A DNA stretch of 46,587 nucleotides. Origin: Haloferax elongans ATCC BAA-1513. Its GTDB lineage: Archaea > Halobacteriota > Halobacteria > Halobacteriales > Haloferacaceae. The stretch spans positions 1-46,587 of the forward strand of contig NZ_AOLK01000020.1 of the NCBI RefSeq assembly GCF_000336755.1, in the 5' to 3' direction. A program made the translations under genes and the position numbers. Shown one piece after another: positions 14,541 to 32,675 of the stretch; within the stretch, counting starts at the first letter, position 1, and every line of letters begins with the position of its first letter. Below the pieces are notes generated by a model that was not told the DNA's origin, did not search any database, and worked only from the letters and a program-made list of their open reading frames with translations.

Positions 14541-14927
14541 TTAGGCATCAGTCTGTTCGATCGAGTAGCGTCGCTCGAGGTCGTCGAGTGCCTCCTGGAC
14601 GTCGTCGGGTTCCATCTCCTCGACGGCGTCGAGACCGTGCTCAACGACGAGAGGTTTCAGGTGCCGGTCTTTCAGGACCTCGAAGTCGCACTCGTAGTTG
14701 AGGCGGTCGTACTGCTTGTCGAGGCGGTCCTTCATCGCGTCGGGTAGATAGACAGTCACGCCGTTCCATGCGCTCTTGACGCTCTCTGCGTCCCATGGAT
14801 TCCTAACCGTCACTGCGTTCTCTGCGTTCATGTCGTTCTCTGGATTCTCTGTCGTGTCGTCCTGGTCGTCGGCGCTGTCGCCGCCGAACCGCCGGGAGAG
14901 TCGGTCGTTGATCTCGTCGTCGCTCAT
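14541..14927 (-). CDS. ParA partner protein (putative centromere-binding protein)
   Basis: 128 residues, starting by ATGA overlap with the parA stop. Residues 1-45 are acidic and probably disordered. Residues about 50-80 (WNGVTVYLPDAMKDRLDKQY) resemble the strand-helix of a ribbon-helix-helix or related DNA-binding fold. The C-terminus is helical and acidic. Partition loci usually pair a ParA ATPase with such a small site-specific binder. A 10-unit 9-base-period array (14761-14850) is written into its own coding sequence (MNAENAVTVRNPWDAESVKSA), so the gene may carry its own binding site. Partner role is inferred from coupling. Confidence 0.6.
   Translation of the reverse strand: MSDDEINDRLSRRFGGDSADDQDDTTENPENDMNAENAVTVRNPWDAESVKSAWNGVTVYLPDAMKDRLDKQYDRLNYECDFEVLKDRHLKPLVVEHGLDAVEEMEPDDVQEALDDLERRYSIEQTDA
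14761..14850 (-). repeat. 9-bp iteron array A, inside the ParA-partner gene
   Basis: Read on the minus strand, ten consecutive units begin every 9 bases: GAATCC, GAACGA, GAACGC, GAACGC, GACGGT, GAATCC, GGACGC, GAGCGT, GAGCGC, GAACGG. The last three bases of each unit vary. The first bases follow a G-A/G-purine-C/T-G pattern. Nine bases equal three codons, so the array is in frame with the gene. The same period recurs at five other places. Confidence 0.75.
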
Positions 14928-15691
14928 GGTTCCACCTCAGCCGCAATCGCGGCGTAGACATCGACCATGTCGGTCTCCTCGGCTTCGGGTCCGAAGATGG
15001 AGCAGTGAGCGTTCACGGTTCGCTCGATGGCGGCACGGTGGCGAACAACCCACACCGGAACTCGCCCCTCGAAGCGCTCCTCGTACCACTGCAGCATCCG
15101 CTTCTGTTCGTTGTCGAGCGGATAGTGGACGTCGGAGACGATGATGCCCGAGATGGCGATGTTCGTCCCGTAGTTCTCGTCGAGCGTGTCCAGCTGGCGC
15201 AGCAAGTGCTGGACGGCGAGCTTCGAGGACTCGTCGGCACGGACGGGGACGAGGAGGTTCTCGGTCGCGAGGACGACGTTGTCGTTGATCGGGCCGAGCG
15301 AGGGCGGGGCATCGAACAGGATGACGTCCCAGTTGTCAACGCCGTCGAACAGCATCTGCAGGCGCTGGCGGGGACGCATCCCGCTCGCAATGAGGTCCTG
15401 CTCAAGGGCGAACATATCGATGCTTCCCGGGAGAACGTCGAACTCGTCGTGAGCGACGACAAGGTCGTGAACGTCGTGGTCGTTCGGGTTCGCGAACGCA
15501 TCGTAGAACGTCGGTGGTTCGCTGGTGTAGTAGTCCTCAAACCCGAGGCGATGCGTGAGGTATCCCTGAGGGTCGGCGTCGACGGCGAGGACGTCGAGGC
15601 CGCGGTCGGCGAGGGCGCCCGCGACGTTGATCGCGTTCGTCGTCTTCGCGACACCGCCCTTCTGGTTCGTGATTCCTATCCTGACGGTCAT
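14924..15691 (-). CDS. parA: ParA-family partition ATPase
   Basis: 255 residues from the ATG at 15691; an upstream in-frame ATG exists, but its codons lie in the iteron array. The deviant Walker A is KGGVAKTT (residues 11-18), switch I is DADPQG (38-43) and Walker B is VILFDAPP (123-130), the set of the Soj/ParA class. These ATPases form dynamic patches on the nucleoid and, with a DNA-binding partner at a centromere, distribute low-copy DNA to daughter cells. The partner gene follows with ATGA overlap. In a virus genome this points to maintenance as a plasmid during latency. Confidence 0.92.
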   Translation of the reverse strand: MTVRIGITNQKGGVAKTTNAINVAGALADRGLDVLAVDADPQGYLTHRLGFEDYYTSEPPTFYDAFANPNDHDVHDLVVAHDEFDVLPGSIDMFALEQDLIASGMRPRQRLQMLFDGVDNWDVILFDAPPSLGPINDNVVLATENLLVPVRADESSKLAVQHLLRQLDTLDENYGTNIAISGIIVSDVHYPLDNEQKRMLQWYEERFEGRVPVWVVRHRAAIERTVNAHCSIFGPEAEETDMVDVYAAIAAEVEP

Positions 15692-15725
15692 GGCATTCCT
15701 ACCGCGCACGACGTTCCATGCGTTC
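15675..15725 (-). repeat. 9-bp iteron array B, across the parA start
   Basis: On the minus strand, six units at 9-base spacing begin GAACGC, GAACGT, GCGCGG, GAATGC, GACCGT, GATAGG. The array covers the parA start region. The location fits autoregulation of the partition operon by a protein that also binds the centromere. Confidence 0.7.
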
Positions 15726-15761
15726 AAATAACCACGTCAGACGCTTGAGAAAGAGATTGAG

Positions 15762-15902
15762 TCAGAACTGCAAGAGAACTACGACGCCGACAACCCACGC
15801 CCCAAGAGCAACGCCGATGAAGATACCCACGGAGAGGTACCACAGTCGCGATTTGTGTGGCGAGTAGGGCGAGTTGGACATCTGCAGGCCCCAGTCGCTC
15901 AT
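15762..15902 (-). CDS. small single-span membrane protein
   Basis: 46 residues starting by ATGA overlap with the upstream gene's stop, which makes the start certain. The N-terminal 20 residues are polar (MSDWGLQMSNSPYSPHKSR), followed by one long membrane helix (LWYLSVGIFIGVALGAWVVG) and a short tail. It lies just upstream of parA in the same operon. Function is unknown. Confidence 0.65.
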   Translation of the reverse strand: MSDWGLQMSNSPYSPHKSRLWYLSVGIFIGVALGAWVVGVVVLLQF

Positions 15903-16108
15903 CGCGACCAGAGCTCCCGGAGTGTCTCACGAATCTCGCCAGGGCGCCAGCCGCGCATCCACGGGTGCAGCGCGCGGTCGTAGCCCTCGAAGATGGGGAT
16001 GGCGTCGACGGGCGCGCCCTCAACAAGCGCGTGGTTCTGTCCGGCCTGGAGGCGTTGGTTGAGATCCCACATGACGCCCGAAAGGGCTCCGTCAGGACGC
16101 TCGGTCAT
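15899..16108 (-). CDS. small hypothetical protein
   Basis: 69 residues from the ATG at 16108, which overlaps the upstream stop (ATGA). The start MTERPDGALSG is therefore preferred over a longer frame beginning at 16174, which would overlap the upstream gene. Neutral to acidic and soluble, with a Trp-rich C-terminal half (PWMRGWRPGEIRETLRELWSR type sequence) that looks helical. No domain is recognised. It belongs to the leftward early operon. Confidence 0.6.
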   Translation of the reverse strand: MTERPDGALSGVMWDLNQRLQAGQNHALVEGAPVDAIPIFEGYDRALHPWMRGWRPGEIRETLRELWSR

Positions 16109-16263
16109 ACAGCCCTCGCTGGCGGGTACATATCGTCCCACCCTGGCCGCGTCCAGCACCCGCACTCGGGACACTCAAGGACGAGTTTCCCCGGGAGTTC
16201 GACGACGTCGGCGTCGGAGCCGCACCCCGTGCAGATTTCTCGCCAGTCGGAGCGATCAATCAC
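16105..16263 (-). CDS. small zinc-ribbon protein
   Basis: 52 residues from a GTG at 16263 that overlaps the upstream stop (GTGA). Two Cys pairs, CTGC and CPEC with a following GC, spaced by about 20 residues, make a classic zinc ribbon. Such mini-proteins in haloarchaea are often nucleic-acid-binding or protein-binding adaptors. Several others lie in the same operon. The specific partner is unknown. Confidence 0.65.
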   Translation of the reverse strand: MIDRSDWREICTGCGSDADVVELPGKLVLECPECGCWTRPGWDDMYPPARAV

Positions 16264-16751
16264 GTCGCCCACCCCGCCGACAGGCTCGACTGGTAGTCGA
16301 CGTCGATTTCGTCGTAGCCGTGAATTTCTACGACATCGTCGTTGTGCCAGAACAGCGACCGTATCTCGCCGTCCTGCTGGACCAAGTACTTCACATTCCG
16401 TCCCTGGTACCGCTTCGGCATCCCGTCCTCTCGGGCAGGCGTCGACGGGTCACCCAACGCAAATGACCATGCCGGAATCCCGTAGTACTCCCGTTCACGC
16501 ACCGCGAACACCTTTTGAATATCTCCATACGCAGTTTCGATTAGCGTACCGGGAGTGACTATGTCTGCAACTGTTGGCTGTTCGGGCGGTGTCACCCGGA
16601 CGAAAATCCCGTCAGGAAGGACCGCCAGACGGTCGGTTATGCGCTCGGCGATGTCGTCAGCGCCTCCACACAGCCAGTCCCAGCCATCTCGCTGATATGG
16701 GTTGTTGGGAGGCCACTCTTCCCCAGATGCTGTTGGTGGTTCGTAGCTCAC
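16260..16751 (-). CDS. hypothetical protein
   Basis: 163 residues from a GTG at 16751 that overlaps the upstream stop (GTGA). A longer frame from 16820 would overlap the upstream gene by over 70 bases and is less likely. The protein is acidic with many Trp, Tyr and Pro residues (GWDWLCGGADD near the start, KYLVQQDGEIRSLFW near residue 125). It has no membrane segment and no motif I can name. Part of the leftward operon. Confidence 0.55.
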   Translation of the reverse strand: MSYEPPTASGEEWPPNNPYQRDGWDWLCGGADDIAERITDRLAVLPDGIFVRVTPPEQPTVADIVTPGTLIETAYGDIQKVFAVREREYYGIPAWSFALGDPSTPAREDGMPKRYQGRNVKYLVQQDGEIRSLFWHNDDVVEIHGYDEIDVDYQSSLSAGWAT

Positions 16752-16987
16752 GACTCGACCACCATCCAGTCGGCCGTCGAGCTCACTGAGTACAGCATCC
16801 CGGGATGGACTTTTGAACACGATGACTCAGTACAGCGAACGAGCATCCGGCCGCCGTAACTCGTGGCGGCGACGTCCTCGACGACACCGGCGTACGACCC
16901 CGACTCGTTCGACCGGTCGATACGAACGACGTCGTCCACGTCTGGGAGCTCCGAGATACGTGCCTCGTGTTGTGCAGAGTCAGTCAT
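16748..16987 (-). CDS. small hypothetical beta-rich protein
   Basis: 79 residues starting at ATG 16987, overlapping the upstream stop (ATGA). It reads like a small beta-barrel: a V-x-R-I-D-x-S stretch followed by SYAGVVEDVAATSYGGRMLV and a WMVV end, with two cysteines in CTESSC. This is reminiscent of short SH3-like or OB-like modules, but no family is certain. It belongs to the same coupled gene string. Confidence 0.55.
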   Translation of the reverse strand: MTDSAQHEARISELPDVDDVVRIDRSNESGSYAGVVEDVAATSYGGRMLVRCTESSCSKVHPGMLYSVSSTADWMVVES

Positions 16988-17118
16988 GCAGACCACTCGT
17001 GCGAACACTCTCTGCAGCGGAGGATTTGGAGCGCTCCGAACTCGCTCATCGATTCTCTCGCCCTGACGAGTAGCTCCGCGTGGCCCGCTCCGCACTCTGG
17101 ACAGACTGGCCGCGTCAT
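16984..17118 (-). CDS. small zinc-ribbon protein
   Basis: 44 residues from ATG 17118, in ATGA overlap with the preceding gene. CPEC near the N-terminus and CREC near the C-terminus, 27 residues apart, form a zinc ribbon similar to the TFIIS or transcription-factor style (ILRCRECSHEW). Its size leaves room only for the zinc fold. Probably a nucleic-acid or polymerase-binding mini-protein. Confidence 0.65.
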   Translation of the reverse strand: MTRPVCPECGAGHAELLVRARESMSEFGALQILRCRECSHEWSA

Positions 17119-17438
17119 CCCGACACCTCCTCGGTCTCGGCCGCCGACAGCTTCGAGTACCGACACACCTCGCAGTACTCCCGGTCGGTCGTCGGGGAAA
17201 GCGTGCCGTACAGAGCGTCTTCGTCGCGCCACAGATACCACACGCCGCCCTCGAAGTCCGGGCATAGTGGTGTCTCGTGGACGTCGCCGTCGTGGGCGAC
17301 AACTCTCACAGCCCCGCCACCGAGCCAGCGCTCGCGACGGTCGAAGCACTCGACGCAGATGTCGCCGTGCGTGATGTGGGCCATGAGCCCGCAGCCGGGA
17401 CAGACTGGGACGTCGTCGACGGACGCGACGTTAGGCAT
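17115..17438 (-). CDS. zinc-binding hypothetical protein
   Basis: 107 residues; ATG 17438 is chosen because it follows the upstream stop region closely and a longer frame gives poor codons. Cysteine pairs CPGC, CVEC, a single C in LCPDFEG and CEVC suggest two zinc sites. The middle (GGVWYLWRDEDALYG) is aromatic-rich. It starts in the end of the 17431 gene and ends by ATGA overlap. Function is unknown. Confidence 0.6.
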   Translation of the reverse strand: MPNVASVDDVPVCPGCGLMAHITHGDICVECFDRRERWLGGGAVRVVAHDGDVHETPLCPDFEGGVWYLWRDEDALYGTLSPTTDREYCEVCRYSKLSAAETEEVSG

Positions 17439-17589
17439 CGTCAGCCTCCTGGCTCCCACGCCACTGCGAACAGTGGTGTGCGTGGTCGTGGTCGCTCACG
17501 ACGTGCCGGTCGCACTCGCCGCAGTACCTGCGGGCGAGGACACTTTCGTCGGCCGGGAGTTCGGGTGCGAGATCTTCGTGGTCAGTCAT
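17431..17589 (-). CDS. small zinc-finger protein
   Basis: 52 residues from ATG 17589, overlapping the kinase-like gene's stop. CGEC followed by HVVSDHDHAHHC gives a Cys2-His/Cys zinc site. Iteron array C lies immediately upstream, over the end of the previous gene, so this start may be regulated by the same binder as parA. Function is unknown. Confidence 0.6.
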   Translation of the reverse strand: MTDHEDLAPELPADESVLARRYCGECDRHVVSDHDHAHHCSQWRGSQEADDA

Positions 17590-18289
17590 CACTACCCTCC
17601 ATGCACGTCGTGCGTTCATTCCGTTCCATGCGCCCACTGCGAGTCGTGCGTTCATGGAACGCATCGCCCGAAGCAAACGACAGCCGCACGGCGAGGTTGG
17701 TAACCTGCTCGCGAAGCGCGTCGACGCCCCACTCGTTGCGGAGCTTCGCGTCGGCCCAGAACGCCCACTCGGGCGTCCCCCACATGGACTCGCGGCCGTC
17801 GCGACGGACGAGGTCGTCGGCGTCGAAGTCGCTCTCGTCCTGGCGGCCGCGGCCCTGGAGTCGGTCAAGGCGCTCGTCGAACGGGGCGTGGACCCACACC
17901 GTCGCCAGCGAGTCGAACCAAAGTTCGAGCGCTGGGATGGCCTCGGTGTCGCGCATCCCGATTACCACGACGGGCTTCGCGGGGACCGCGTCGGCGGCCT
18001 CGAGGCGGTCGATGATGTCCTGAGCGACGTAGTCCCCGCCGTCAACGTCGCGACGCATCGTCGAGTAGTCGCCGAGTGCGTCCGAGGAGAGGTCGTCCGT
18101 GGAGTCGACGTCGAAGTGGTCACGTGCGCCCTCGCGGACGATGTCACCTGTTTCGAGTTCGATAGCGTCGAGTTCGTCAGCGAGCATCTCGCCTGCGGTC
18201 GACTTCCCAGCGCCGGGCAGTCCGATCACGACGACGCCCTTACGGAGGTTCTTGGTGGGTGCCTCGTATCTATCGCGAGACTCACTCAC
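17582..18289 (-). CDS. P-loop kinase-like protein (UPF0200/adenylate kinase-like)
   Basis: 235 residues. Walker A is GLPGAGKST (residues 23-31), followed by ELETGDIVREGARD and a YSTMRRDVDGGDYVAQDI segment typical of UPF0200 and related nucleotide or dephospho-CoA kinase-like proteins. VVVIGMRDTEAIP and VWVHAPFDERLDRLQGR complete the P-loop kinase core. The C-terminal 30 residues (FHERTTRSGRMERNER) are encoded by iteron array C and are not part of the fold. It may phosphorylate a nucleotide or small metabolite. Start overlaps the DUF1643 gene stop. Confidence 0.75.
   Translation of the reverse strand: MSESRDRYEAPTKNLRKGVVVIGLPGAGKSTAGEMLADELDAIELETGDIVREGARDHFDVDSTDDLSSDALGDYSTMRRDVDGGDYVAQDIIDRLEAADAVPAKPVVVIGMRDTEAIPALELWFDSLATVWVHAPFDERLDRLQGRGRQDESDFDADDLVRRDGRESMWGTPEWAFWADAKLRNEWGVDALREQVTNLAVRLSFASGDAFHERTTRSGRMERNERTTCMEGSDD
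17594..17662 (-). repeat. 9-bp iteron array C
   Basis: On the minus strand, units at 9-base spacing begin GAACGC (17653), ACTCGC, GGGCGC, GAACGG, GAACGC, ACGTGC, GAGGGT. An inverted GAACGC (17657-17662) closes one end, giving the near-palindrome GTTCATGGAAC. The 19 bases CGTTCATGGAACGCATCGC at 17649-17667 recur exactly in array D. The array spans the end of the kinase-like gene and abuts the start of a zinc protein. Confidence 0.75.
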
Positions 18290-18819
18290 AGTTCATCACC
18301 GTCCCATTCCGTCGGAATAGCGTCTTTCGGTTGGTAGAGCGGGTGGTTCGGGTGCCCGTCCATCGTGGTGTCGAGCGCCCACAGTACCGGCTCGTCGAGC
18401 ATCGAGGCGACTTCTTCGGCACGACCGTGGAGCGAACCCTTCGCTCCCCACGCGACGATAACCTGTTGTGCGTTCTCGCAGACGTTTCGAAGGTGCTCGT
18501 CGTTGTCGGGGCCGATTGGGTCCGGGTGGTCTTCGAGTTGTGACGGGTCCGTTGCTCGCAGGCCAAACAGATTGGCGACGACGAGCGAACCGTATCCCCA
18601 GTCACGGGCGTAGTTGATGCAACGCCGAATCGTCGGGTCATCTTCCGTCGCGTCCGCCGTACTCGGGTTGAGCATCACGAACGCCAGAGTTGGTTTGCCC
18701 GAGTCCCACGTCCGCGAGAGTCGATAGCGGTACTGTCCGTCTTCGCTGATGACGGCACCAGCAGAGTTGGAACCGGCGAGCGTTTGCTGAGTACCGGATG
18801 CACATTGCTCACTCGGCAT
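18286..18819 (-). CDS. DUF1643 domain protein
   Basis: 177 residues. RYRLSRTWDSGKPTLAFVML, then NPSTADATEDDPTIRRC, then a GYGSLVVANLFGLRATDP stretch are the hallmarks of DUF1643, a family widespread in phages and plasmids. It has no proven reaction; structural proposals link it to nucleic acid or nucleotide chemistry. It stands next to a P-loop kinase-like protein and an ASCH protein, a combination that hints at nucleotide or RNA handling. The N-terminus carries a GTQQ tag shared with three neighbouring genes. Confidence 0.85.
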   Translation of the reverse strand: MPSEQCASGTQQTLAGSNSAGAVISEDGQYRYRLSRTWDSGKPTLAFVMLNPSTADATEDDPTIRRCINYARDWGYGSLVVANLFGLRATDPSQLEDHPDPIGPDNDEHLRNVCENAQQVIVAWGAKGSLHGRAEEVASMLDEPVLWALDTTMDGHPNHPLYQPKDAIPTEWDGDEL

Positions 18820-19042
18820 CGTCGAACACCTCTGGGAAGTCGTCGACGTGGAACGTGAGTTCGACAGTCACCGTGTGGTCCGAACCGTGGGCACACTTCG
18901 ACTCTGCTACCTTCGCGCGAGACGAATCGAGAATCTCGTCTAACTCTTCGTCGAGGGCGTCACTGGTGAGCAACTTTCCGTCCGGGTTGAGAGTGCCGTA
19001 CTCTTCCCGAAGTTCATCGTGGCGTGAAGTTCCTGTGCTCAT
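18809..19042 (-). CDS. small acidic hypothetical protein
   Basis: 77 residues, strongly acidic, helical in the first half (DELREEYGTL, DALDEELDEILD) and with a strand-like TVTVELTFHVDDFPEVF second half. ATG overlaps the ASCH gene stop (ATGA). It overlaps the DUF1643 start by 11 bases. It could be a partner or regulator of its neighbours. No domain is recognised. Confidence 0.6.
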   Translation of the reverse strand: MSTGTSRHDELREEYGTLNPDGKLLTSDALDEELDEILDSSRAKVAESKCAHGSDHTVTVELTFHVDDFPEVFDDAE

Positions 19043-19398
19043 TCCCAGAGGTCCTCCCAGTCCCAGTAGATGATTTCGAGCGTCGTCTCGGGCGTGATCT
19101 CTTCGTCCGGGTAGTAGCCTTCGAGTTCGTCGATGAGTTCCGCCGTGCTTCGGTACGTCCGGTGGCCGTCGATGTTTTCTCGTGCGGCCTGCTCGACGGT
19201 GATGTAACCAGTATCGGCGATGTGAACAGAGGCAAAGCGTTCACCTGACTCGTCGATTAGCTGGACGCGCTCGCCGGTCCTCGGCACATCATCGGTGATG
19301 CGGTAGGTGAGCGTCTTCCGGCCACCCAGAATCGCGTCGATGTGCTTGTCAGCGAAATTGAGTTTCCGGATTTGCTGAGTCCCCGTGCTCAAATCCAT
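19039..19398 (-). CDS. ASCH domain protein
   Basis: 119 residues with the ASCH pattern: KLNFADKHIDAILGGRKTLT at the start, a G-E-R-V-Q-L strand, then ASVHIADTGYITVEQAA and TTLEIIYWDWEDL. ASCH folds resemble PUA domains and bind RNA; some (YqfB type) hydrolyse N4-acetylcytidine. Which activity this one has cannot be told. It carries GTQQ near residue 6, like three neighbours. Coupled by one-base overlap (TGATG) with the upstream gene. Confidence 0.8.
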   Translation of the reverse strand: MDLSTGTQQIRKLNFADKHIDAILGGRKTLTYRITDDVPRTGERVQLIDESGERFASVHIADTGYITVEQAARENIDGHRTYRSTAELIDELEGYYPDEEITPETTLEIIYWDWEDLWE

Positions 19399-19760
19399 CA
19401 GTCGTCACGCTCCTTCGGCACGCGTCGAACATCCGTGTGAGTCGTCTGGATGAGTTCTCCACGGTACGTTCGCTCTGAGTCTGCCGATTCCTTCGCGTAC
19501 TCTTCGTTCGGTGCCTCGACGACAACGGTTTCTCGGTGTTCCGTATAGAACGTGAACTCGAAGTGTGCCGGTTCGCTGTTCTGATAAGGACCGTCTACGT
19601 GGTAGACTTCGTCGTACTCTGAACTATCGAGAGCCTTCTCACGGGCGTCTTTCTCCGTGTCGGCAGTGACGGCTTTGCACTCGCCGTCGCGGTGGGTGCC
19701 TACCCAGACAGCCCACGCCGCACCTTCGACGAGCCTCTCAATCTTCGTGTTCGAATCCAT
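19398..19760 (-). CDS. hypothetical protein
   Basis: 120 residues from the ATG at 19760 (a GTG lies one codon earlier). Mixed alpha/beta: AWAVWVGTHRDGECKAVTAD, then a helix TEKDAREKALDSS, then HFEFTFYTEHRETVVVEA. The alternation with two DxEKDAREKAL/NEEYAKESA helices suggests two small repeats. It is acidic and cytosolic. No family is recognised. Middle of the leftward operon. Confidence 0.6.
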   Translation of the reverse strand: MDSNTKIERLVEGAAWAVWVGTHRDGECKAVTADTEKDAREKALDSSEYDEVYHVDGPYQNSEPAHFEFTFYTEHRETVVVEAPNEEYAKESADSERTYRGELIQTTHTDVRRVPKERDD

Positions 19761-20122
19761 CACTCACTCACCTCAAAATCAGTGTCACACGTGTAGCATC
19801 GGTATGCGTCGTCGGTAGATGATACTTTGTCTGAGCCACAGTGCGGGCACTCGTCAACGTCTCTTTCGTCTTCGATCTTGTAGAGCCGCCCCTGAATTTT
19901 GATGTGTCCTTCGGGCACATCTCCGTTTCCGCTCTTTCCCGTCGTCGGGAAGACAGTGAGTTCACTGTACTCTTGCACACCGTCGCCAGAGTAGGTGAAC
20001 TCAATCTTCATGTGCGGCTTCTCGACGACAACCACGCCGGTTTTTCCAACGACGTGCGACGGAGTTTCGAGGCCTTCGTCGGTGAGTGCGAGTGTCTGGA
20101 TAGCTGATTCCGTGTCTTGCAT
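19760..20122 (-). CDS. hypothetical protein with C-terminal zinc ribbon
   Basis: 120 residues from ATG 20122, chosen because an earlier in-frame ATG at 20167 would lie inside the upstream gene. Residues 1-80 form a beta-rich domain (VVGKTGVVVVEKPHMKIEF). Residues about 93-115 carry CPHC and CYTC, a zinc ribbon. The combination suggests a nucleic-acid or protein adaptor. No family name can be given. Confidence 0.6.
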   Translation of the reverse strand: MQDTESAIQTLALTDEGLETPSHVVGKTGVVVVEKPHMKIEFTYSGDGVQEYSELTVFPTTGKSGNGDVPEGHIKIQGRLYKIEDERDVDECPHCGSDKVSSTDDAYRCYTCDTDFEVSE

Positions 20123-20123
20123 A

Positions 20124-20579
20124 TCAGTACACCTCAGATTCGCTTTCCGTGACAGTCGTTTCACCATCGGGTGACGTGCTTACGACCGTCTTCACACGCT
20201 TGTCTCCCGGCGTGTAATAACTCAGGCAAGCCTCAGGGACACCATCCTGTTCAACTGCTACGTCTGCGGTTTTCTCTATGTCGAGAGTGCAGTAACTGCA
20301 CGGGCGAACAGGATTCAACCACGAGGTCATTACGCTTTCCAGCTCGTGCGCCTGAATGTATCTGATTTTGTCGCCGTCGTATTCGAGCGGCTCAGTCCGG
20401 TGAAGTCGGTGACAGTGTTTGTCGGCGTGGAAGACTTCGCTGTTTCCAGAGGTGAACACCGTCGTCGATGCCGAGTGGTCCGAGTATGCGAAGGGCCTCG
20501 GACGGACTTCTACACCGTCTTGCATGAATGGTTGAATACGGTTCCATCGCTCGTCTTGCTGAGTACCAGCGTCGCTCAT
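20124..20579 (-). CDS. hypothetical protein
   Basis: 151 residues; ATG overlaps the upstream stop. The segment FHADKHCHRLHR followed later by PVRPCSYCTLDI gives Cys/His residues placed like a treble-clef or split zinc site, the pattern of small proteins that detect or bind nucleic acid. The first 20 residues include SDAGTQQ, the tag found in neighbouring genes. A similar H-x-D-R/K-x-C ... C-x-x-C arrangement occurs in the 32631 gene product. Confidence 0.6.
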   Translation of the reverse strand: MSDAGTQQDERWNRIQPFMQDGVEVRPRPFAYSDHSASTTVFTSGNSEVFHADKHCHRLHRTEPLEYDGDKIRYIQAHELESVMTSWLNPVRPCSYCTLDIEKTADVAVEQDGVPEACLSYYTPGDKRVKTVVSTSPDGETTVTESESEVY

Positions 20580-20719: not shown

Positions 20720-21003
20720 CAGTAATCGTACCCCGTTCCACACCGCGTACACCGAACGCGGTGCTCAGTTTGTTCCCACTCGATCGATAGTCGATACTCG
20801 TCGGCGTCGAAGTCCGTCGCATCCCACATCCCGACGACCATGCGCCCGGTCGCGACCTCTTCGTCGACGAGGTCGCCGCCACAGTCGCAGGTGTCGACGC
20901 GCTCAGTCGCGACAATTCTCGAACCCTTCTCCGTCGGGTAAGTGGTCTGGTCCGTCGGCGGGACTGGGGGCGTCGGTTTCTGTTCGCCGGTACTTTCAGC
21001 CAT
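20719..21003 (-). CDS. small zinc-binding hypothetical protein
   Basis: 94 residues from ATG 21003. CDCGGD near residue 39 and CTRCG near residue 86 form a split zinc site around a beta-rich middle (GRMVVGMWDATDFDADEYRL). The last residues (TGYDY) follow the second knuckle. Iteron array D lies immediately upstream of the ATG, so transcription or translation of the distal operon may be controlled here. Function is unknown. Confidence 0.65.
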   Translation of the reverse strand: MAESTGEQKPTPPVPPTDQTTYPTEKGSRIVATERVDTCDCGGDLVDEEVATGRMVVGMWDATDFDADEYRLSIEWEQTEHRVRCTRCGTGYDY

Positions 21004-21007
21004 CGTA

Positions 21008-21076
21008 AGTCTCCGTACGCTCCATGTGTTCATGTTTTTCAGTGCATTCAATGCGCCCCATCCGTTCATGGAACGC
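21008..21076 (-). repeat. 9-bp iteron array D
   Basis: On the minus strand, seven units at exact 9-base spacing begin GAACGG, GGGCGC, GAATGC, GAAAAA, GAACAC, GAGCGT, GAGACT. An inverted GAACGC (21071-21076) stands at the far end, just as in array C, and 19 bases (21063-21081) are identical to array C. The array fills the gap between two genes, so here it is not constrained by coding. Confidence 0.8.
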
Positions 21077-21104
21077 ATCGCTCGAAGAGAACAACATCAC
21101 GGTT

Positions 21105-21380
21105 TCAGACATGGAATGTCACCTCGACGCCGTTGACTTCCAAAACACGGTCACCGCACTCGGGGCATTCGGTAGTGACGTGATCTGGGAAATGCAGCTT
21201 CCCATACCCGTCCGCCCGAACAGCAGTCTTCTCGGTTTCGAACTCCTCGACCCACCCATCGCAGAACTCAGGCTCGATATCCGGCGTCATGCACCGGACA
21301 ACGAGTTTCTCCGAGACGAGTGCTGCAGGGACGTGGTCGAAGCCGTCGGGAATCACTTTTGAATCGTTCGACTGGCTCAT
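21105..21380 (-). CDS. zinc-binding hypothetical protein
   Basis: 91 residues, start overlapping the upstream stop. CECPECGD-type motif near residue 72 (ECPECGDRV) with earlier cysteines at C30 and C40 may give one zinc site. The rest is a beta-rich acidic domain ending in VNGVEVTFHV. It is the last gene before array D. Function is unknown. Confidence 0.55.
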   Translation of the reverse strand: MSQSNDSKVIPDGFDHVPAALVSEKLVVRCMTPDIEPEFCDGWVEEFETEKTAVRADGYGKLHFPDHVTTECPECGDRVLEVNGVEVTFHV

Positions 21381-26155: not shown

Positions 26156-26243
26156 GGGTCAGGAGAAACTCCCCAACCTGATATTACCACCGAACGGGAA
26201 TATACAGATTGCCAACAAGTGTCTGTAGATGTTCATTGGCTAA

Positions 26244-26386: not shown

Positions 26387-26469
26387 TACGGGATTGGCTT
26401 CCACGACGAATCTCAACAGTGCCTCTAGACGAGGGCTGTTTCGGTAGTGATCAGGCTACCGTGAAAGCC

Positions 26470-26874
26470 ATGAGTACAAAAGACAACTCTCCGGATAAAT
26501 CAACCGGCACGAACTGTCGCAACGCTCGCAACCAACCCCACGCCTCGGACCTGACACACTTCCAGGTCAACATCCTCATCATCCTTGCCGAGGAGGACAA
26601 GTACGGACTCGCCATCAAACGCGACCTCGAGACCTACTACGGCACCGAAGTGAACCACGGGCGCCTGTACCCCAACCTCGACGACCTTGTCGAGATGGGC
26701 CTCGTCGAGAAAACGGAACTCGACAAGCGCACGAACAACTACTCGCTCACGAGCGCCGGCGAGCACCTGCTTCGTAACCGTGCGCAGTACCTCGTTGGTT
26801 CTCTCGACTTAGAGGTTTCCCCACGCGGGGAGTCAGAGTCGAACGCTGTCGCGACCGACGGAGGTGAGATGTGA
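26470..26874 (+). CDS. PadR-like winged-helix regulator
   Basis: 134 residues from ATG 26470. LTHFQVNILIILAEEDKYGL, then AIKRDLETYYGTEVNHGRLY, then LVEMGLVEKTELDKRTNNYS is the haloarchaeal PadR-like fold, including the GRLYPNLDDL recognition helix and the wing. The ends are acidic and disordered. It faces the PhiH1-like repressor across an operator, so the two may form an opposing switch. It heads a rightward operon of coupled genes. Confidence 0.8.
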   Translation: MSTKDNSPDKSTGTNCRNARNQPHASDLTHFQVNILIILAEEDKYGLAIKRDLETYYGTEVNHGRLYPNLDDLVEMGLVEKTELDKRTNNYSLTSAGEHLLRNRAQYLVGSLDLEVSPRGESESNAVATDGGEM

Positions 26875-27152
26875 TGGAGCGTACAGACCTTGCAACAGTA
26901 GGAGTCAGTGACTCTCGCGGAGCTAGCATTTTCCTCGGGGAGCGTGACACAGAATGGGAAAATCTCGAAATCGGCGGTGAAGAGGGACTGACAGAGGTAT
27001 ACTGGAACCGCCGGATGCTACTCACACTCCCAGAGCCGATGGACAGTGATGAGTTCCGGCAGTTCGTCGAAGAAGCTGGCCACATCCGCAACATCCTCGA
27101 CAAGTGCCTGCCCGGAATCGACGTGATCGACGGGGGCGAGGATGCCCAGTGA
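26874..27152 (+). CDS. hypothetical protein
   Basis: 92 residues; ATG overlaps the PadR stop (TGATG). Acidic with strands in the first half (ASIFLGERDTEWENLEIGG) and helix in the second (SDEFRQFVEEAGHIRNILDKC). No family is recognised. It overlaps the next start by 11 bases. Confidence 0.55.
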   Translation: MERTDLATVGVSDSRGASIFLGERDTEWENLEIGGEEGLTEVYWNRRMLLTLPEPMDSDEFRQFVEEAGHIRNILDKCLPGIDVIDGGEDAQ

Positions 27153-27711
27153 TGCCGTCGAAGGCCTCACGCGCGAGGACGTTCTCGGAACGACGGTGAA
27201 GTCCTCGGCAGGGCACTGGTACGAAGTCACGGAGACAGACAACGGGGGTCGCCTTGACCTCGTCGCCGTCGACAGCGACAACGTCGGGCACACGATGGAC
27301 GCCGACGACCTGCTCGACCGGTTAAACGACGGCGAATGGGAGACCGTCTACGAGGGCACGACCCGGGAAATAGTCACCGACGGTGGGCACAACCAGTGTT
27401 CCAACTGCGGGAGCCACCTCCCCGAGGAGATCGACGAAGGGACGGGCGTTTATTGTCCTGACTGCGGCCTCGGCCAACTTGTCACCGACGGCGGGTGGAA
27501 CGTCGACGGCGAGGCGCCGCCGCGAGGCTGCGACCACCCCGAACCGGCCGTCCTCGAGGACGACCACGCGTGGGACCTAGTCAAAGGCGTCATGCTCGTC
27601 CGGGGAACCTGTACGTCCTGCGGTCGCGACGTCGAAGAGACCTACCACATCTCGCGTGAGTCTGTGAGCGACGAGCCGGTGGCCCTCACTGACGGGGGTG
27701 ACCGCACATGA
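27142..27711 (+). CDS. zinc-ribbon hypothetical protein
   Basis: 189 residues. The first 70 residues form a small beta domain. A zinc ribbon follows with CSNC and CPDC around residues 86-107 (HLPEEIDEGTGVYCPDCGLG), and a second with a CDH ... CTSC pattern around residues 130-155. The phrase IVTDGG/LVTDGG occurs twice before the knuckles, suggesting a duplicated module. Probably an adaptor or nucleic-acid-binding protein. Stop overlaps the next start. Confidence 0.6.
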   Translation: MPSDAVEGLTREDVLGTTVKSSAGHWYEVTETDNGGRLDLVAVDSDNVGHTMDADDLLDRLNDGEWETVYEGTTREIVTDGGHNQCSNCGSHLPEEIDEGTGVYCPDCGLGQLVTDGGWNVDGEAPPRGCDHPEPAVLEDDHAWDLVKGVMLVRGTCTSCGRDVEETYHISRESVSDEPVALTDGGDRT

Positions 27712-28406
27712 TTCGCGCCATTTTCGGACTCGTCGAGGGCGAGCCGTCGACGACCGAAATCCCCCGCCGACTCGGCAAGGGTCTCCCCGCGTTCGAGACA
27801 GAGTCGACGCAGTATCTCGACGGCAAGGAGATCTACCACGGGACGGCCGCCGACCAGGTCGACACAACGGTCCAAGAAGTCCACGTCGACGACGACGGGA
27901 TCTACACCGAGCGCGTTGAAGGTCAGGAGGAGTCAGTTACCGACTTCGTGGCTGACCTCGAGTCGGGGTTCGTCGGTGTCGACTCTTCGAACGGCGAGTG
28001 GTTCTTCGAACGACTCATGCCCATCGCGAAGGCCGGCGTCCACCGCGCGATGATCGACGTCACGGCGTTCGCAGCTCACGTCGACGACCAGGACGGCCGG
28101 TGCTGGCAGGTCAGCTACAAGCACGCCCTCGACGACGACGAAGACGACGACGGGCAGGCCAAGTCCGGGACCATCTTCCACCGCGATGCCCACTTCGGCG
28201 CCGGGAGCGGTAAGTACAACCAGTACGGCTTCGCCTACCACTGGGACGGCGAGTTCATCCGCGGAACTATCGCCGAGTCGGGCTACGTCGCCGTCTTCTC
28301 GACCGACCGACCCGAGGTGTTCGGCCGGTGGGTCCTCGACGAGGTGCTTCCGTACGCATCGCTCCTCGAAGACGACGTCCAGACCACACTCTCGGAGGTG
28401 CGGTAA
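27708..28406 (+). CDS. hypothetical protein
   Basis: 232 residues; ATGA overlap with the previous gene. Acidic alpha/beta protein with conserved-looking segments ESTQYLDGKEIYHG, SNGEWFFERLM and SGYVAVFSTDRPEVFGRW. The DDDEDDDG stretch near residue 142 is a typical halophilic surface loop. No membrane segment and no known catalytic motif. Function is unknown. Confidence 0.6.
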   Translation: MIRAIFGLVEGEPSTTEIPRRLGKGLPAFETESTQYLDGKEIYHGTAADQVDTTVQEVHVDDDGIYTERVEGQEESVTDFVADLESGFVGVDSSNGEWFFERLMPIAKAGVHRAMIDVTAFAAHVDDQDGRCWQVSYKHALDDDEDDDGQAKSGTIFHRDAHFGAGSGKYNQYGFAYHWDGEFIRGTIAESGYVAVFSTDRPEVFGRWVLDEVLPYASLLEDDVQTTLSEVR

Positions 28407-28407
28407 G

Positions 28408-29325
28408 ATGGCGATGTCAACGCCCACGCCCACGCTCGCGGGCTATCGCGAGGACATCGACGACGAGGGCACCGACCTTCGCGTCGAAGTGACGGCGGGC
28501 GAGCAGCACATCGCCTTGGAAGCACGCGCCGTCGACGGCGTCGCGACGGTCGAGATGATCAACCCGAAGGGCGACATGGTCCTCCGACGGAAGACGTTCG
28601 ACATCGTCGCGACGGCGGTCGACGAACTTCGCGACCGTGGGTTCGAGGTTGACCTCGGTGCGCTCGGCGCACTTGGTGTCAATCCGGTTGACGACCTCGA
28701 CCTCAGTTGGGGCGGCGATTACACAGGATCGCTGACGCTCACGGGGACTTCCGTCGACCCTGAAGACAGCTCCACGAACGAGACGCACTCTGTGAGCTCC
28801 GTCGTCGACAGCTGGGGCGACGACCTGGACGGCGAGGACGGCGAAGTCTGGTGTGGCATCTGTGGCAAGGGCCCGTACCAGTCGCTCGGGATTCACCACG
28901 GACAGATGCACAAAGGTGAGGACAAAGTCGCTCTCGACCACGAACCAGATCCAGGCGAGCTCGGCGTCCACGTCGGCGACCAGGACGAGGACGGTGGCGA
29001 CGCCGTCGACGGAGACGAACAGGAAGACGTCGACGACGAGGACGACGACGTCCCGCTGCCGCCGTGGCTCGACGAGCACCCAACGGACGTCATCGAGGAC
29101 TCGAGCATCAACCGGTCGCTCGAAGATGTCCTTCGCGAGGTCGAACGCCAAGACAGCATCCTCGGTATCCAGCAGCGCCTCGCCGCCGGCACGACCAAGA
29201 AGACCAAAGAGTTGCTGACGCGTCTCGGGCTGACTGCGCCGGGCGATAACGAACTCATCGGGGAGGCACAGCGTGCAACGCGGGTCCCCATCCTCCGGGC
29301 AATCGCCAGTGATGGCGATGCATGA
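28408..29325 (+). CDS. hypothetical protein with C2H2-type finger
   Basis: 305 residues from ATG 28408. Residues 1-110 form an alpha/beta domain (TDLRVEVTAGEQHIALEARA). A C2H2 knuckle follows (CGICGKGPYQSLGIHHGQMH, about residues 151-170), then a long acidic linker of Asp and Glu (about 175-220), then a helical end (NRSLEDVLREVERQDSI, TKKTKELLTRLGL). The finger plus helical tail suggests DNA binding or a scaffold for other small proteins. No family name. Confidence 0.6.
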   Translation: MAMSTPTPTLAGYREDIDDEGTDLRVEVTAGEQHIALEARAVDGVATVEMINPKGDMVLRRKTFDIVATAVDELRDRGFEVDLGALGALGVNPVDDLDLSWGGDYTGSLTLTGTSVDPEDSSTNETHSVSSVVDSWGDDLDGEDGEVWCGICGKGPYQSLGIHHGQMHKGEDKVALDHEPDPGELGVHVGDQDEDGGDAVDGDEQEDVDDEDDDVPLPPWLDEHPTDVIEDSSINRSLEDVLREVERQDSILGIQQRLAAGTTKKTKELLTRLGLTAPGDNELIGEAQRATRVPILRAIASDGDA

Positions 29326-29428
29326 ACCCACGGTCACCGAGGCGAAGTGCGACATCTGCGGGACGGACTTCGACGCCGACGTCGACGCGCTGCTCGACCA
29401 CGACTGCGACGGGGGTAACGAGCTGTGA
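29312..29428 (+). CDS. 38-residue zinc-finger peptide
   Basis: Starts inside the end of the previous gene and ends in GTGA overlap with the next. CDICGTDFDADVDALLDHDC gives Cys-x2-Cys ... His-x-Cys, a minimal zinc finger. Both ends are coupled, which supports it despite its size. Function is unknown. Confidence 0.55.
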   Translation: MAMHEPTVTEAKCDICGTDFDADVDALLDHDCDGGNEL

Positions 29429-30120
29429 GCGTCGGCCCTGAGCAGTATGCCACGACTTCGAACGGGGATGTTCAGTTGAGCACGTGGTGTGGCAAGCACC
29501 GCGTTTTGCCCCACCTGCTTCCGTTCAAGTACCGGAAGACGACGCCAATCGAGTTCCTCGACGCCGTCGTCGAAGGGCTGGACGAGCTTCCCCAGACGGC
29601 CGCGACGTTCACGCCGGCACAGATGGACGACATCGACGTCCGACCAGCCGCAGGAGCAAACATCATGACCGATATGCTCGGGACGCTCGGCGCCTGGAAG
29701 GTCGACCGGTCGAGCTCAGCCCGGTGGGTCAACCCGAACTACGTGCACCTTCGGAAACTCGACAATATGATCGAGTCCGGCGACCGGAGGGAGATCGTCG
29801 AGCGGTGCGCGTCGTACGGGACGCTCACGGTCGCTGACGTCGCGCCCCGGTTCGGAATCTCCGAGATGGGGCTTCGACGGTGGCTCACGCGCAAAGGCAT
29901 CACGTGGAGTGAACTTCGCCAAGAAGGGATCACTCGCCTCGCGCGGACGATCCATACTGCGTCGGCGTGGGGGCACTCGGAACTCCGGTACGCCCGTGTC
30001 CTGCCCCGGCCAGAAGGGACGATCCGGTCGTGGGTTCAGAAGTACGCTCGCGATGTCGACTTTGAACCGCCTGCCGACCCGAGCGGGAAGCAGTGGTTCA
30101 TGGGAGGGCAGGTCAGATGA
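29425..30120 (+). CDS. HTH-containing DNA-binding protein
   Basis: 231 residues, GTG start overlapping the previous stop. Residues about 112-165 include ESGDRREIVERCASYGTLTV, then ADVAPRFGISEMGLRRWLTR, a resolvase/sigma-like helix-turn-helix, followed by GITWSELRQEG. The N-terminal half (STWCGKHRVLPHLLPFKYRK) is unrecognised. It may regulate middle or late genes. The position at the end of the early string, followed by a noncoding region with hairpins, fits a regulator. Confidence 0.65.
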   Translation: MSVGPEQYATTSNGDVQLSTWCGKHRVLPHLLPFKYRKTTPIEFLDAVVEGLDELPQTAATFTPAQMDDIDVRPAAGANIMTDMLGTLGAWKVDRSSSARWVNPNYVHLRKLDNMIESGDRREIVERCASYGTLTVADVAPRFGISEMGLRRWLTRKGITWSELRQEGITRLARTIHTASAWGHSELRYARVLPRPEGTIRSWVQKYARDVDFEPPADPSGKQWFMGGQVR

Positions 30121-30200
30121 CCTCCCGCCGCTTCGCCGGCTGGTGGGCCGTCGTGTGCGCTGCAGTGCTCGTCACCGCGTACCTGGGGGTAACCTGGTGA
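30117..30200 (+). CDS. 27-residue membrane peptide
   Basis: MTSRRFAGWWAVVCAAVL continues to LGVTW; ATGA overlap with the previous stop and ATGA at its own end. A basic N-terminus and a single hydrophobic helix. Very short but coupled on both sides. Confidence 0.45.
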   Translation: MTSRRFAGWWAVVCAAVLVTAYLGVTW

Positions 30201-30922
30201 TGAGCGTGCAGCCACCAACCAATGGATCCGTGAACGCGTGGGTACAGCAGGACGGCCAGGTCGTCGACGGCGACGAAAGTGCCGCCCGGCCGCATTTCCC
30301 GTACGGTGGGAGGCCAGCGATGAGTGACGATAACCCTGTGGCGTCAGACATTCAGCCAAAGTATAAGAACCACGTCCGCGAAAGAACGCGATATGCAACG
30401 CTGACGCTCATCGGCAGTGAGGTCCGGGGACATCCCCGGCGACCTCGCGGCCACCGGGGACGGTCCACCAGAAGGAAGTTGACACTTGCCTCTTCTCGTG
30501 GATTCGTCTTAACGTTTGCCCACTCGAAGAGTCGTGACTCTGTCACGTGCGACTCGACGGCGACGACGGTGACCTCGACGAGCGTCTCGACCAGCATCGG
30601 CACCCAACCAGCCACAACAACCACCACGATGCACGAGATCTCCACGATAGTTGACCAAGCCCGCCCTGAACCCCAGAGAGAATTTTTTTCTTCGCGACCT
30701 GCCCTCCGAGAGTACACCAGGGGGACAGCCAGAACACCAAACGGACGCTACACCCCATCCAAACCCACGAATAGCCAAGCAACCATGAGGGGACCGGTAG
30801 TTCCACAGGAACCGGCCCCCTCCCCTGCCTCACATCAGTGTGATGTGAGTGGTAGGTGTAGAGACGGCCGCCTCACATCAGACTGCTGTGACTGCATCCG
30901 TGGGGGTGAAATCAATGCGTGA
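30200..30922 (+). CDS. doubtful open frame over a regulatory region
   Basis: An open frame of 240 codons begins with coupled ATGA (MSVQPPTNGSVNAWVQQDG). The first 60 codons have the high-GC third positions of real genes here, but after about 30420 the product turns Arg-rich and then Thr/Ser-rich, atypical for a halophile, and the DNA fills with hairpins, a T-run and operator repeats. Probably only a short or broken coding part at the left, with regulatory DNA at the right. I do not assign a product. Confidence 0.22.
   Translation: MSVQPPTNGSVNAWVQQDGQVVDGDESAARPHFPYGGRPAMSDDNPVASDIQPKYKNHVRERTRYATLTLIGSEVRGHPRRPRGHRGRSTRRKLTLASSRGFVLTFAHSKSRDSVTCDSTATTVTSTSVSTSIGTQPATTTTTMHEISTIVDQARPEPQREFFSSRPALREYTRGTARTPNGRYTPSKPTNSQATMRGPVVPQEPAPSPASHQCDVSGRCRDGRLTSDCCDCIRGGEINA
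30423..30438. repeat. strong GC hairpin
   Basis: CCGGGGA-CA-TCCCCGG is a perfect 7-base-arm palindrome, with a further CCACCGGGGAC close behind. In an RNA it would fold tightly. It lies in the poorly coding part of the region between the HTH gene and the RHH gene and may be an end signal or leader structure. Confidence 0.45.
30678..30695. repeat. 18-base inverted repeat, left copy (T-run)
   Basis: GAGAATTTTTTTCTTCGC is the exact reverse complement of 31132-31149. The seven T's could end transcription on the plus strand, while the right copy lies within the RHH gene and could do the same for the minus strand. Similarity extends loosely about 10 bases on each side. Confidence 0.5.
30829..30880. 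promoter_or_regulatory. operator-like repeats before the RHH gene
   Basis: CTCACATCA-GTG-TGATGTGAG (30829-30849) is a perfect palindrome with 9-base arms. A third CTCACATCA stands at 30872-30880. All lie within 90 bases upstream of the ATG at 30915. The likely binder is the ribbon-helix-helix protein itself. Confidence 0.65.
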
Positions 30923-32069
30923 CCGTACTCTCCTCGACTGGCGAGTCCCCAAATCCGAGTGGGAACGGTTTGTCGAACACGTTGAAACCGAATTTGGCAG
31001 TACTGAGGGATATCTCGGCCGCGAGGCGGAAGCTGCGATGCGAGAGTATGCAGACACCGACGGCTACGCTGGCGTCGAGGAACGCGTCGACCGTCTCGTT
31101 CAGGCAGCTGGTCGTTCCTCTGGGGGGGACAGCGAAGAAAAAAATTCTCAGTTCAACGGGGAGCCAACGACTCGAGTCACAGTCCGTGTCGACCCTGACG
31201 TGAAAGACGAATTCCGGAAGGAAGCCAAGAAGAGCGACCAGTCGTACGGCGTCACGTTCGCCCGTGCAATCCAGACCTACCGCAACGGTGGCCGCGCCGC
31301 TCGTCTCGAGCGTCGTCTCGACCGCGTCATCGACGACGCCGAGAAGATGCTCGAACATGTGGCGAACGAGGGCGACGACGAGGTCTCGATGGGGAAACAC
31401 CAACGGTGTGTGATCACGATTGCGGCAGACCTGGGCGACGAGTTCGTCGACGACGAGCTGGAGCGCAAGATTCGGGATGTCGCGAACGTCCACTCCCGGA
31501 AGCAGATTCGCGAGTACCGCCGCGACGTCATCGAACACAAAGGCGTCGAACCTCACCCGAAGGTCCCGCATCTGTGGGTCCAACCCGAGGAGGCCGAACG
31601 GCTGTGCCCAGGCGTTCCGAAAGAGTGCCGCCGCCCGGTCGAACATCTCGACTCGGACGCTCGCGTGAAACGACTGAAACTCGCGGCTGGCCGTCGAGCT
31701 GCGGCTACCGACGCGGGGAAGGTCCGCGTCACTGCCACAGAGATTCGTGAACACGTCTTCGACAACGAAACGTCGACGAAGACGACGCGTGAGCTGATGC
31801 GCTCTGCCGCCCAGGTCACAGGCATCGGTTTTGACGGCTCGACGTCGCCCGCGGCGCTGCAGGTCAACCTCCGAGTCTTAGGGGAGACAGAGTTCGACCT
31901 GTTTGACGAGATCATCGACTACCGCGACAACACTGACAGCGGACTCCTGACGTCGTCGACGCCGACGACAATGGATGACTTCGTGAGAAAACCGAGCGAT
32001 GCAACATCCGGCGGCGCGACCGCAGCTTCCGACGGCGGCGAAGACGGCCCGTGGGGTGGGGACAAGTGA
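30915..32069 (+). CDS. ribbon-helix-helix-like DNA-binding protein
   Basis: 384 residues from ATG 30915 with GGGGGTGA upstream. Residues 1-70 (LLDWRVPKSEWERFVEHVET) form one helical domain. Residues about 84-120 (TTRVTVRVDPDVKDEFRKEA) read as a ribbon-helix-helix strand and helices. Residues about 160-300 form a further domain with CVITIAADLGDEFVDDELER. The tail is acidic. Related proteins occur on haloarchaeal plasmids and viruses. It may be a replication or partition accessory, or the regulator of the operator palindromes just upstream. Seven A's at 31138-31144 are a possible slippage site. Confidence 0.55.
   Translation: MRDRTLLDWRVPKSEWERFVEHVETEFGSTEGYLGREAEAAMREYADTDGYAGVEERVDRLVQAAGRSSGGDSEEKNSQFNGEPTTRVTVRVDPDVKDEFRKEAKKSDQSYGVTFARAIQTYRNGGRAARLERRLDRVIDDAEKMLEHVANEGDDEVSMGKHQRCVITIAADLGDEFVDDELERKIRDVANVHSRKQIREYRRDVIEHKGVEPHPKVPHLWVQPEEAERLCPGVPKECRRPVEHLDSDARVKRLKLAAGRRAAATDAGKVRVTATEIREHVFDNETSTKTTRELMRSAAQVTGIGFDGSTSPAALQVNLRVLGETEFDLFDEIIDYRDNTDSGLLTSSTPTTMDDFVRKPSDATSGGATAASDGGEDGPWGGDK
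31132..31149. repeat. 18-base inverted repeat, right copy (A-run)
   Basis: GCGAAGAAAAAAATTCTC is the reverse complement of 30678-30695 and falls within the linker between the first two domains of the RHH-like protein. Confidence 0.5.
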
Positions 32070-32338
32070 GGCACGTCTGTCCGCACTGCGGCGCTGACTC
32101 CGAACGCCACGAGGCTATTGAACGTCGTCGCGATGGATTCCATGAACGCACTGAACGCCATCACTGCAGGGAATGCGGCTACTCGTGGGATGGCGACCGA
32201 AAACTCTCCGAAGACGCCGACAATCCCCTGTGTCCGAACTGCGAGACGAACCTACTCGTTCATCAGGCCAAAGGCAACGGCAACGACTGGGCCTGTGAAG
32301 GCTGCAACACGAAATGGTCTCGAACGGAGGTCGCGTAA
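32066..32338 (+). CDS. double zinc-ribbon protein
   Basis: 90 residues from a GTG at 32066 overlapping the previous stop (GTGA). Two zinc ribbons: CPHC with CREC, then CPNC with CEGC, the style of transcription or repair accessory ribbons (YSWDG, TKWSR after each). Iteron array E (32135-32176) is embedded in the coding for DGFHERTERHHCREC, and that peptide resembles the array-coded tail of the kinase-like protein. Function is unknown. Confidence 0.65.
   Translation: MRHVCPHCGADSERHEAIERRRDGFHERTERHHCRECGYSWDGDRKLSEDADNPLCPNCETNLLVHQAKGNGNDWACEGCNTKWSRTEVA
32135..32176 (+). repeat. 9-bp iteron array E
   Basis: On the plus strand GAACGC (32144-32149), GAACGC (32153-32158), CACTGC (32162) and GAATGC (32171-32176) follow at 9-base spacing, preceded by an inverted GGATTC (32135-32140) as in arrays C and D. 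Two more GAACGY units stand at 32102 and 32120, 18 bases apart. Weaker than arrays A-D, and coding. Confidence 0.5.
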
Positions 32339-32626
32339 ATGCCATCGGAGTGGCAACCAGCAGGGAAGGGAGACCGTCCACAGTTCCCCAGAATCGAGGA
32401 AGACGAAGGCGAAGACCCGGCCAGGTTCCTCGCCGAGCCTCTCGAAGCGGACTACGGCGACGGCGCCAGTGGGATGCTCGCCCTCGCCCGCATCCGCGGT
32501 ATCGAGTCGCTCTCACTCCTCAACGCCTACCGGTTGGTCGAGCGAGAACTGCATGGGGGCGAACGAAAGACGATCAAGGAAGCGCTTGACGAGCGCGAGC
32601 AAGAGCTCTCGAACGAGGTTCAATGA
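32339..32626 (+). CDS. small hypothetical protein
   Basis: 95 residues starting directly after the previous stop. Acidic, with a disordered start and a helical C-terminal half (SLSLLNAYRLVERELHGGER, then EALDEREQELSNE). No family recognised. Followed after 4 bases by the next start, over iteron array F. Confidence 0.55.
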   Translation: MPSEWQPAGKGDRPQFPRIEEDEGEDPARFLAEPLEADYGDGASGMLALARIRGIESLSLLNAYRLVERELHGGERKTIKEALDEREQELSNEVQ

Positions 32627-32675
32627 ATTCATGCCTTCCATTACACAACAAGAACGCATTGAACGCATAGAAGAA
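32625..32675 (+). repeat. 9-bp iteron array F
   Basis: Units at 9-base spacing on the plus strand begin GAATTC (32625), CCTTCC, ACACAA, GAACGC (32652), GAACGC (32661), GAAGAA (32670). Two are perfect, the others degenerate. It overlaps the start of the next gene (MPSITQQERIERIEE), similar to array B over the parA start. Confidence 0.5.

Follow-up and report, generated by a model that had tools for sequence, protein, structure and literature searches.

In the pSM19035 system, the ribbon-helix-helix (RHH) protein omega binds contiguous 7-bp repeats that overlap the promoters of the genes for delta (ParA), omega and copS, and a run of four repeats already activates ParA (PMC9499535). In this work, we describe short tandem repeats in a 46,587-nt contig of the haloarchaeon Haloferax elongans ATCC BAA-1513 (NZ_AOLK01000020.1), hereafter the window, by which we mean the whole stretch of DNA analysed. 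Its terminase and portal genes mark it as the genome of a Haloferax-associated tailed virus; with its 89-base terminal overlap (positions 1-89 equal 46499-46587), the assembly is circular, as would suit a plasmid-like provirus. The window carries six arrays of 9-bp units (A-F), a parA gene and, directly downstream of it, a small gene whose product is referred to here as the partner. Comparison of sequences makes it quite probable that the arrays are parS (centromere-like) sites of a type-Ib-like haloarchaeal ParA system and that the partner is its predicted centromere-binding protein (CBP). The centromeres of haloarchaeal plasmids and viruses have long been missing, and we regard such 9-bp arrays as strong candidates for them.

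Like delta-omega/parS of pSM19035, the window combines a ParA protein with a small, here predicted, DNA-binding protein and with several arrays of short, non-palindromic, contiguous units in direct and inverted orientation, some of them at the parA promoter and others at different places on the element (PMC9499535). The original prediction made for this DNA had called the 9-base, non-helical step unusual; it is not strange in itself, because omega works on contiguous 7-bp heptads (PMC9499535). Unlike pSM19035, the system of the window is archaeal, its 9-bp unit varies widely between elements, the presumed binding protein has an array within its own coding sequence, and the partner has no sequence or structure match to any RHH protein. 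Judged by analogy, omega/parS would be the closest counterpart, with the partner a candidate member of the RHH class. The type Ib system ParF-ParG/parH of TP228 consists of a ParA-like ATPase, a small downstream-encoded CBP with a flexible N-terminal tail, and iterated short boxes upstream of parA. The window shares with it the kind of ATPase, the small downstream partner and the iterated units before parA; it differs in the size and sequence of the box, and parH does not lie within the CBP gene. In Bacillus subtilis, a parS site that is a 16-bp palindrome for the CTPase ParB lies inside spo0J. The window likewise has a centromere-like site within the gene of its putative binding protein, but there it is a tandem array that moulds the protein tail.

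The SegAB system of Sulfolobales has sites just before segA and many within genes (PMC5120986, PMC12284271), and the sites of the window, too, are found just before the ATPase gene and inside genes. SegB, however, binds the 13-bp palindrome TCTAGASTCTAGA, whereas the arrays of the window are 9-bp tandem units. A reading of the window in terms of SegB palindromes was rejected, with 5 matches (at most 3 mismatches) against 7.1 expected by chance. The virus phiH1 encodes the same gene pair (PhiH1_265 and PhiH1_260), with a 9-bp array in the tail and an out-of-frame one at the 3' end; unlike the window, it shows no clear array before parA. In the parts of the phiH1 paper covered by a term search, PhiH1_260 is an uncharacterized or hypothetical protein and no such repeats turn up (PMC6210493). 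In the passages of the phiH1 and ChaoS9 genome papers retrieved in the same way, ParA is named, and neither a partner function nor a centromere is.

The original prediction had reported six GAACGC-type arrays, all of which are present at the positions and on the strands it gave. In the periodicity scan that it had proposed (GAACGC, steps 6-21), they are the top six period-9 chains of the window (scores 15.0, 8.0, 7.2, 7.0, 6.8 and 6.2), and only step 18, itself a multiple of 9, gives anything comparable to step 9. The shuffle test that it had named yielded a mean of 0.06 chains scoring at least 6.2 (400 dinucleotide shuffles), and local triplet shuffles (n = 200) a mean of 0.09, against 6 observed. 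Arrays C and D have, as described before, 19 identical bases in common (GCGATGCGTTCCATGAACG), and an inverted unit GCGTTC faces GAACGC.

Because the GAACGC hexamer was learnt from the arrays themselves, independent evidence has to come from relatives. The closest of these are carried by H. mucosum and H. mediterranei, and two elements, designated by our genome and contig numbers G243:C6 (54.6 kb, with a terminal overlap of 127 bases) and G076:C9, are syntenic with the window at a DNA identity of about 65-85%. The unit model, iterated over the window and its relatives, reads about (A/C)(A/T)(T/G)GAACGC; the window-derived model finds arrays at matching places in both syntenic elements, plus some new places. 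Array A occurs in the partner gene of all four elements compared (window, G243, G076 and pHME132), with scores of 63-87 and a shuffle maximum of 19.9. Arrays B, before parA, and F, at the start of a winged-helix/MarR-like gene, are kept in the window, G243 and G076, the counterparts of F lying at 50570 and 8103, respectively. G243 also has arrays at 33012-33107, the place corresponding to array C, and at 32801. Among viral contigs, the window is identical to IMGVR_UViG_2554235478_000002 of IMG/VR, and a search with the partner protein as query matched the window itself and nothing else. Exact-pattern scans of viral contigs with GAACGC-type patterns matched many sources; the unit is too unspecific for use across the collection, and these loci were set aside.

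Homologues of the partner were found in 142 of 391 haloarchaeal genomes and, in an evenly drawn sample of the phylum, in 24 of 295 genomes, all within the same order. The family includes phiH1 PhiH1_260 and many plasmid proteins, and parA lies directly upstream of the partner gene in nearly all of the 35 elements compared. Its alignment is characterized by a conserved N-terminal DRLSRRF-type motif, a tail of highly variable length (acidic in the window partner), and a C-terminal domain in which NVKxEWNxxSxYLPD is followed by helices. The window partner itself has no relative in Pfam, NCBIfam or the PDB, and its sole PHROG match is of no assigned function. In the structure model of the domain (mean predicted local distance difference test score, pLDDT, of 83.5, above 90 in the helices), an extended segment precedes two helices, an order that fits the RHH fold in a monomer model, which cannot form the inter-subunit ribbon. 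The window ParA has no N-terminal helix-turn-helix (HTH) extension, as in type Ib ParA proteins.

One subfamily (loci L162-L181) is near-invariant (MTDGWGDASG...ETSETNETSKT...RTIYIPD) across many genera, plasmids and chromosome-sized contigs. It has long non-coding AACGAAACG arrays and in some genomes is located on the largest contig, which is of chromosome size. At its locus L166, on a 4.48 Mb contig (G161:C1), 12 units are found in the tail, and the 300 bp before parA contain three arrays, two with 6 and 9 units and one with at least 7. On pHME132 (L067, 51.6 kb region), the partner gene is intact with a 14-unit array, and the parA match amounts to 39 residues near the C terminus; we take this locus to be a decayed system that has retained its array.

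In nearly every distant member of the family, the strongest 9-bp periodicity detected de novo at the locus is that of the N-terminal coding DNA of the partner. The tail units differ between elements: ACAGATAAY (G267), GATAARTCC (G154), AGAACGCA-like (phiH, G122, G168), AACGAAACG (G189, G341) and TTCCRAA-like (G175, G308). When a model learnt from the partner coding DNA alone was scanned before parA and compared with shuffles, 21 of the 31 elements showed the tail-derived unit again upstream of parA (p <= 0.01). Non-coding arrays before parA are located at -95, -213 and -300 in G189, at -437 in G311, at -809 (20 units) in G258, at -62 in G267, and at about -35 in G134, G018, G319, G380 and G122. 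Over the last 120 bp before parA (32 elements), the mean z was 5.7 for the own unit, 4.6 for similar foreign units and 0.16 for dissimilar foreign units (p = 1.3e-12). Random segments of equal geometry gave a mean z of 0.9, with values above 3 in 11 of 96 cases as opposed to 22 of 32 real ones (p = 4e-9). The own unit was often not top-ranked among all 34 models, because an AGAACGC-like unit is common to many elements, and grouping by unit similarity resolved this. Some additional chains seen in phiH and G123 may be real or coding coincidences.

Such an element-by-element match between coding and non-coding arrays is expected under a shared reader. The earlier proposal that the arrays serve one DNA-binding protein thus gains support, and the product of 14541-14927, the partner, is the best candidate, as the unit before parA matches that of the partner gene across the 32 elements. 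From genetic linkage and covariation, we infer that the partner probably binds DNA and reads the arrays. The unit is paired with particular residues of the presumed DNA-reading strand of the partner, S/T-x-Y-L occurring with AGAACGC-like units, K-L-I/V-H-L with GATAAA, R-T-I-Y-I with AAACGAA, and R-Y-M-Y-L/I with TTCCnAA-like units.

The features of the window are collected in Table 1. The original prediction had placed the arrays at gene starts or ends, which holds for B (reaching the parA start), C and D (gene ends) and F (spanning a start codon) and fails for A and E, which are intragenic; array A is not at the edge of the partner gene but falls in its N-terminal half. Array B has the same position in G243, G076 and many distant elements. 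Arrays C and D occupy the 3' ends of unrelated genes, where they encode peptide tails (..AFHER..ER..ME.), and at 32798-33107 of G243 the kinase gene and the small gene that follows likewise end in array-coded tails; from these sequences, the arrays seem to have been added to gene ends, lengthening the proteins. Among phages, the 38-residue open reading frame (ORF) that contains array D is without relatives. Elsewhere in the window (30849-32069, plus strand), an RHH-like stretch of more classical type (TTRVTVRVDPDVKDEFRKEAKKSDQSYG) occurs in a 406-residue protein, which is possibly a second DNA-binding protein of the virus, unconnected to the arrays.

Table 1. Repeat arrays of the window and the genes in and around which they lie.
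Feature	Position	Strand	Description
Partner gene (putative centromere-binding protein, 128 aa)	14541..14927	-	Overlaps the end of parA; phrog_29165; homologues adjoin parA
Array A	14752..14850	-	11 contiguous 9-bp units in the tail-coding region of the partner gene; score 70.9, shuffle maximum 19.9
parA	14924..15691	-	Walker-type ParA ATPase, 255 aa; Pfam AAA_31 1.5e-33, CbiA 1.5e-17; MTVRIGITNQKGGVAKTT start
Array B	15675..15728	-	5-6 units from TATA-like TTATTT to the parA start codon; scores 30.6 and 25.7
parA promoter	15726..15742	-	Conserved GTCTGACG-TGG-TTATTT; adjoins array B
Nucleoside-monophosphate-kinase-like gene	17582..18289	-	Array C at its 3' end; phrog_10255 kinase 1.7e-45; Pfam AAA_18 2.8e-10
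Array C	17585..17665	-	Last codons of the kinase gene to the start of the next gene; inverted unit; scores 38.5 (-) and 30.0 (+)
Array D	21017..21079	-	Within a 38-residue ORF (20996-21112); the gene starting at 21003 follows directly; score 38.9
Array E	32141..32176	+	4 units and a flanking inverted unit, inside a zinc-ribbon gene (32066-32338); score 30.0
Array F	32622..32675	+	6 units across the start codon (32631) of a winged-helix (MarR-like) gene (32631-33128); score 31.8

Most of the parA genes compared have in common GTCTGACG, a few bases and then a TATA-like run, and in elements of the AGAACGC group the array begins in or just after this run and extends to the ATG. The GTCTGACG box is kept before parA even where the arrays differ completely; it may represent a separate promoter element or be bound by a regulator common to these elements. 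Transcripts of haloarchaea frequently lack a leader, so a protein bound to array B would cover the start site, which makes autorepression of parA a natural inference. The overlap of array B with the parA promoter region, together with the position of C, D and F, which reach or cross the start of a gene, would also suit another arrangement, in which the arrays are operators of an autoregulatory repressor, the partner, and have no centromere role, the ParA system using another site. We consider this unlikely, as array A and the 3'-end arrays lie within the partner gene, remote from promoters, and several long non-coding arrays far upstream of parA (in G189 and at the locus on the 4.48-Mb contig) exceed the needs of an operator.

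In G168, G230, G134, G018, phiH, G123, G319, G380, G229 and G122, the 3' end of the partner gene has a second array of the same unit, and by coordinate subtraction this array is out of frame with the tail array (1 mod 3) in all 10 readable elements. In the window, array A is read as ..AAC-GC. and arrays C-F as GAA-CGC ('ER'), so one peptide cannot account for all the arrays. These frames bear on the possibility that the arrays are by-products of three-residue repeats (ENA, TSE, SDK) in a disordered acidic tail, selected as peptide. Tail-coding arrays do always give three-residue repeats, and synonymously shuffled genes retain much of the 9-bp regularity. The same unit nevertheless recurs, in one element after another, in the non-coding DNA that precedes parA; it is also found in a different frame where the partner gene ends, and in other genes of the window. 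Codon choice adds to the regularity: when synonymous codons were permuted with the protein fixed, the regularity fell in 30 of the 33 genes that could be tested, 13 of them with p < 0.05. The coding/non-coding match, the frame change and the codon bias together indicate that selection acts on the DNA and not on the peptide alone; both are constrained, and the constraint on the DNA is real. The non-coding copies, the frame change and the codon permutation largely refute a purely peptide origin, which we hold to be quite improbable.

In the phage-plasmid N15, several sites around the genome, each a separate palindrome, are bound by an HTH (SopB-type) ParB. The original prediction had compared the arrays with the dispersed centromeres of N15, which link partition with gene silencing, and the window does have several sites dispersed around a viral genome whose assembly is circular (terminal overlap of 89 bp). 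N15 does not serve well as a model, since a search of the whole host genome found no ParB_N protein (PF02195), which was found in 10 of 14 control genomes, and since the sites of the window are direct repeats of a short unit rather than separate palindromes; an arrangement of the N15 type is therefore refuted as far as its protein is concerned and very doubtful as a whole. That the arrays are replication-origin iterons or host-factor sites, a thought suggested by halovirus parA regions near replication genes (e.g., repH in phiH), is extremely unlikely, as in each element the unit goes with the partner gene, changes from one element to the next and occurs inside genes unrelated to replication.

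Several points weigh against a parS role for the arrays. At the sensitivity of the upstream scan, 10 of 31 elements have no clear array before parA, and since the elements share ancestry, this and the other counts across them are not independent trials. The three-residue peptide repeat accounts for part of the tail regularity, and arrays C and D lie within tightly packed operons with no obvious promoter. An RHH fold of the partner was not confirmed by database searches: Pfam RHH_1 was touched by 1 of 28 members (E = 1.4), profile searches of all PDB sequences gave no match to a DNA-binding protein (SegB was not compared directly), and Foldseek found no match for either the full-length model or the confident domain model.

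If the arrays are parS sites of a type-Ib-like ParA system, as we favour, the C-terminal domain of the partner would read the 9-bp unit and fill contiguous units cooperatively, while ParA is probably contacted and stimulated through the conserved DRLSRRF segment at the N terminus of the partner. Bound at array B, which runs from the TATA-like box up to the start codon of parA, the partner would also repress its own parA-partner operon. A further full-length array lies in the DNA coding for the tail, where there is little constraint on the protein sequence, so that the gene would contain a portion of its own centromere. The unit diverges along with the strand of the partner that presumably reads the DNA, and segregation would in this way be specific to each element. 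Arrays C-F, at gene junctions in the Haloferax virus group, would be further loading sites and may also damp those genes. Two points are new here, namely the full array within the coding DNA of the partner's flexible tail and the divergence of the unit along with the presumed reading strand. More tentatively, it is possible, though short of probable, that viruses, plasmids and chromosome-sized replicons of haloarchaea use a dual-coded centromere, in which unit and reading strand diverge within one gene and give rise to new incompatibility groups, and that the spread of arrays in the Haloferax viruses couples partition to lysogenic gene control.

The features of archaeal chromosome and plasmid centromeres, clustered or dispersed, have been listed among the open questions of the field (PMC5120986). 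In the open-access literature, we found no description of a haloarchaeal centromere or of the partner family; subscription journals could hold one. Should the proposed function be correct, the tail unit of the partner gene, subsequently sought before parA, would predict centromeres for about one third of haloarchaeal genomes, incompatibility groups would become testable, and sequences for stable vectors would be supplied. It would also mean that the partner is a DNA-binding protein whose own coding sequence is moulded by the sites that it probably reads.

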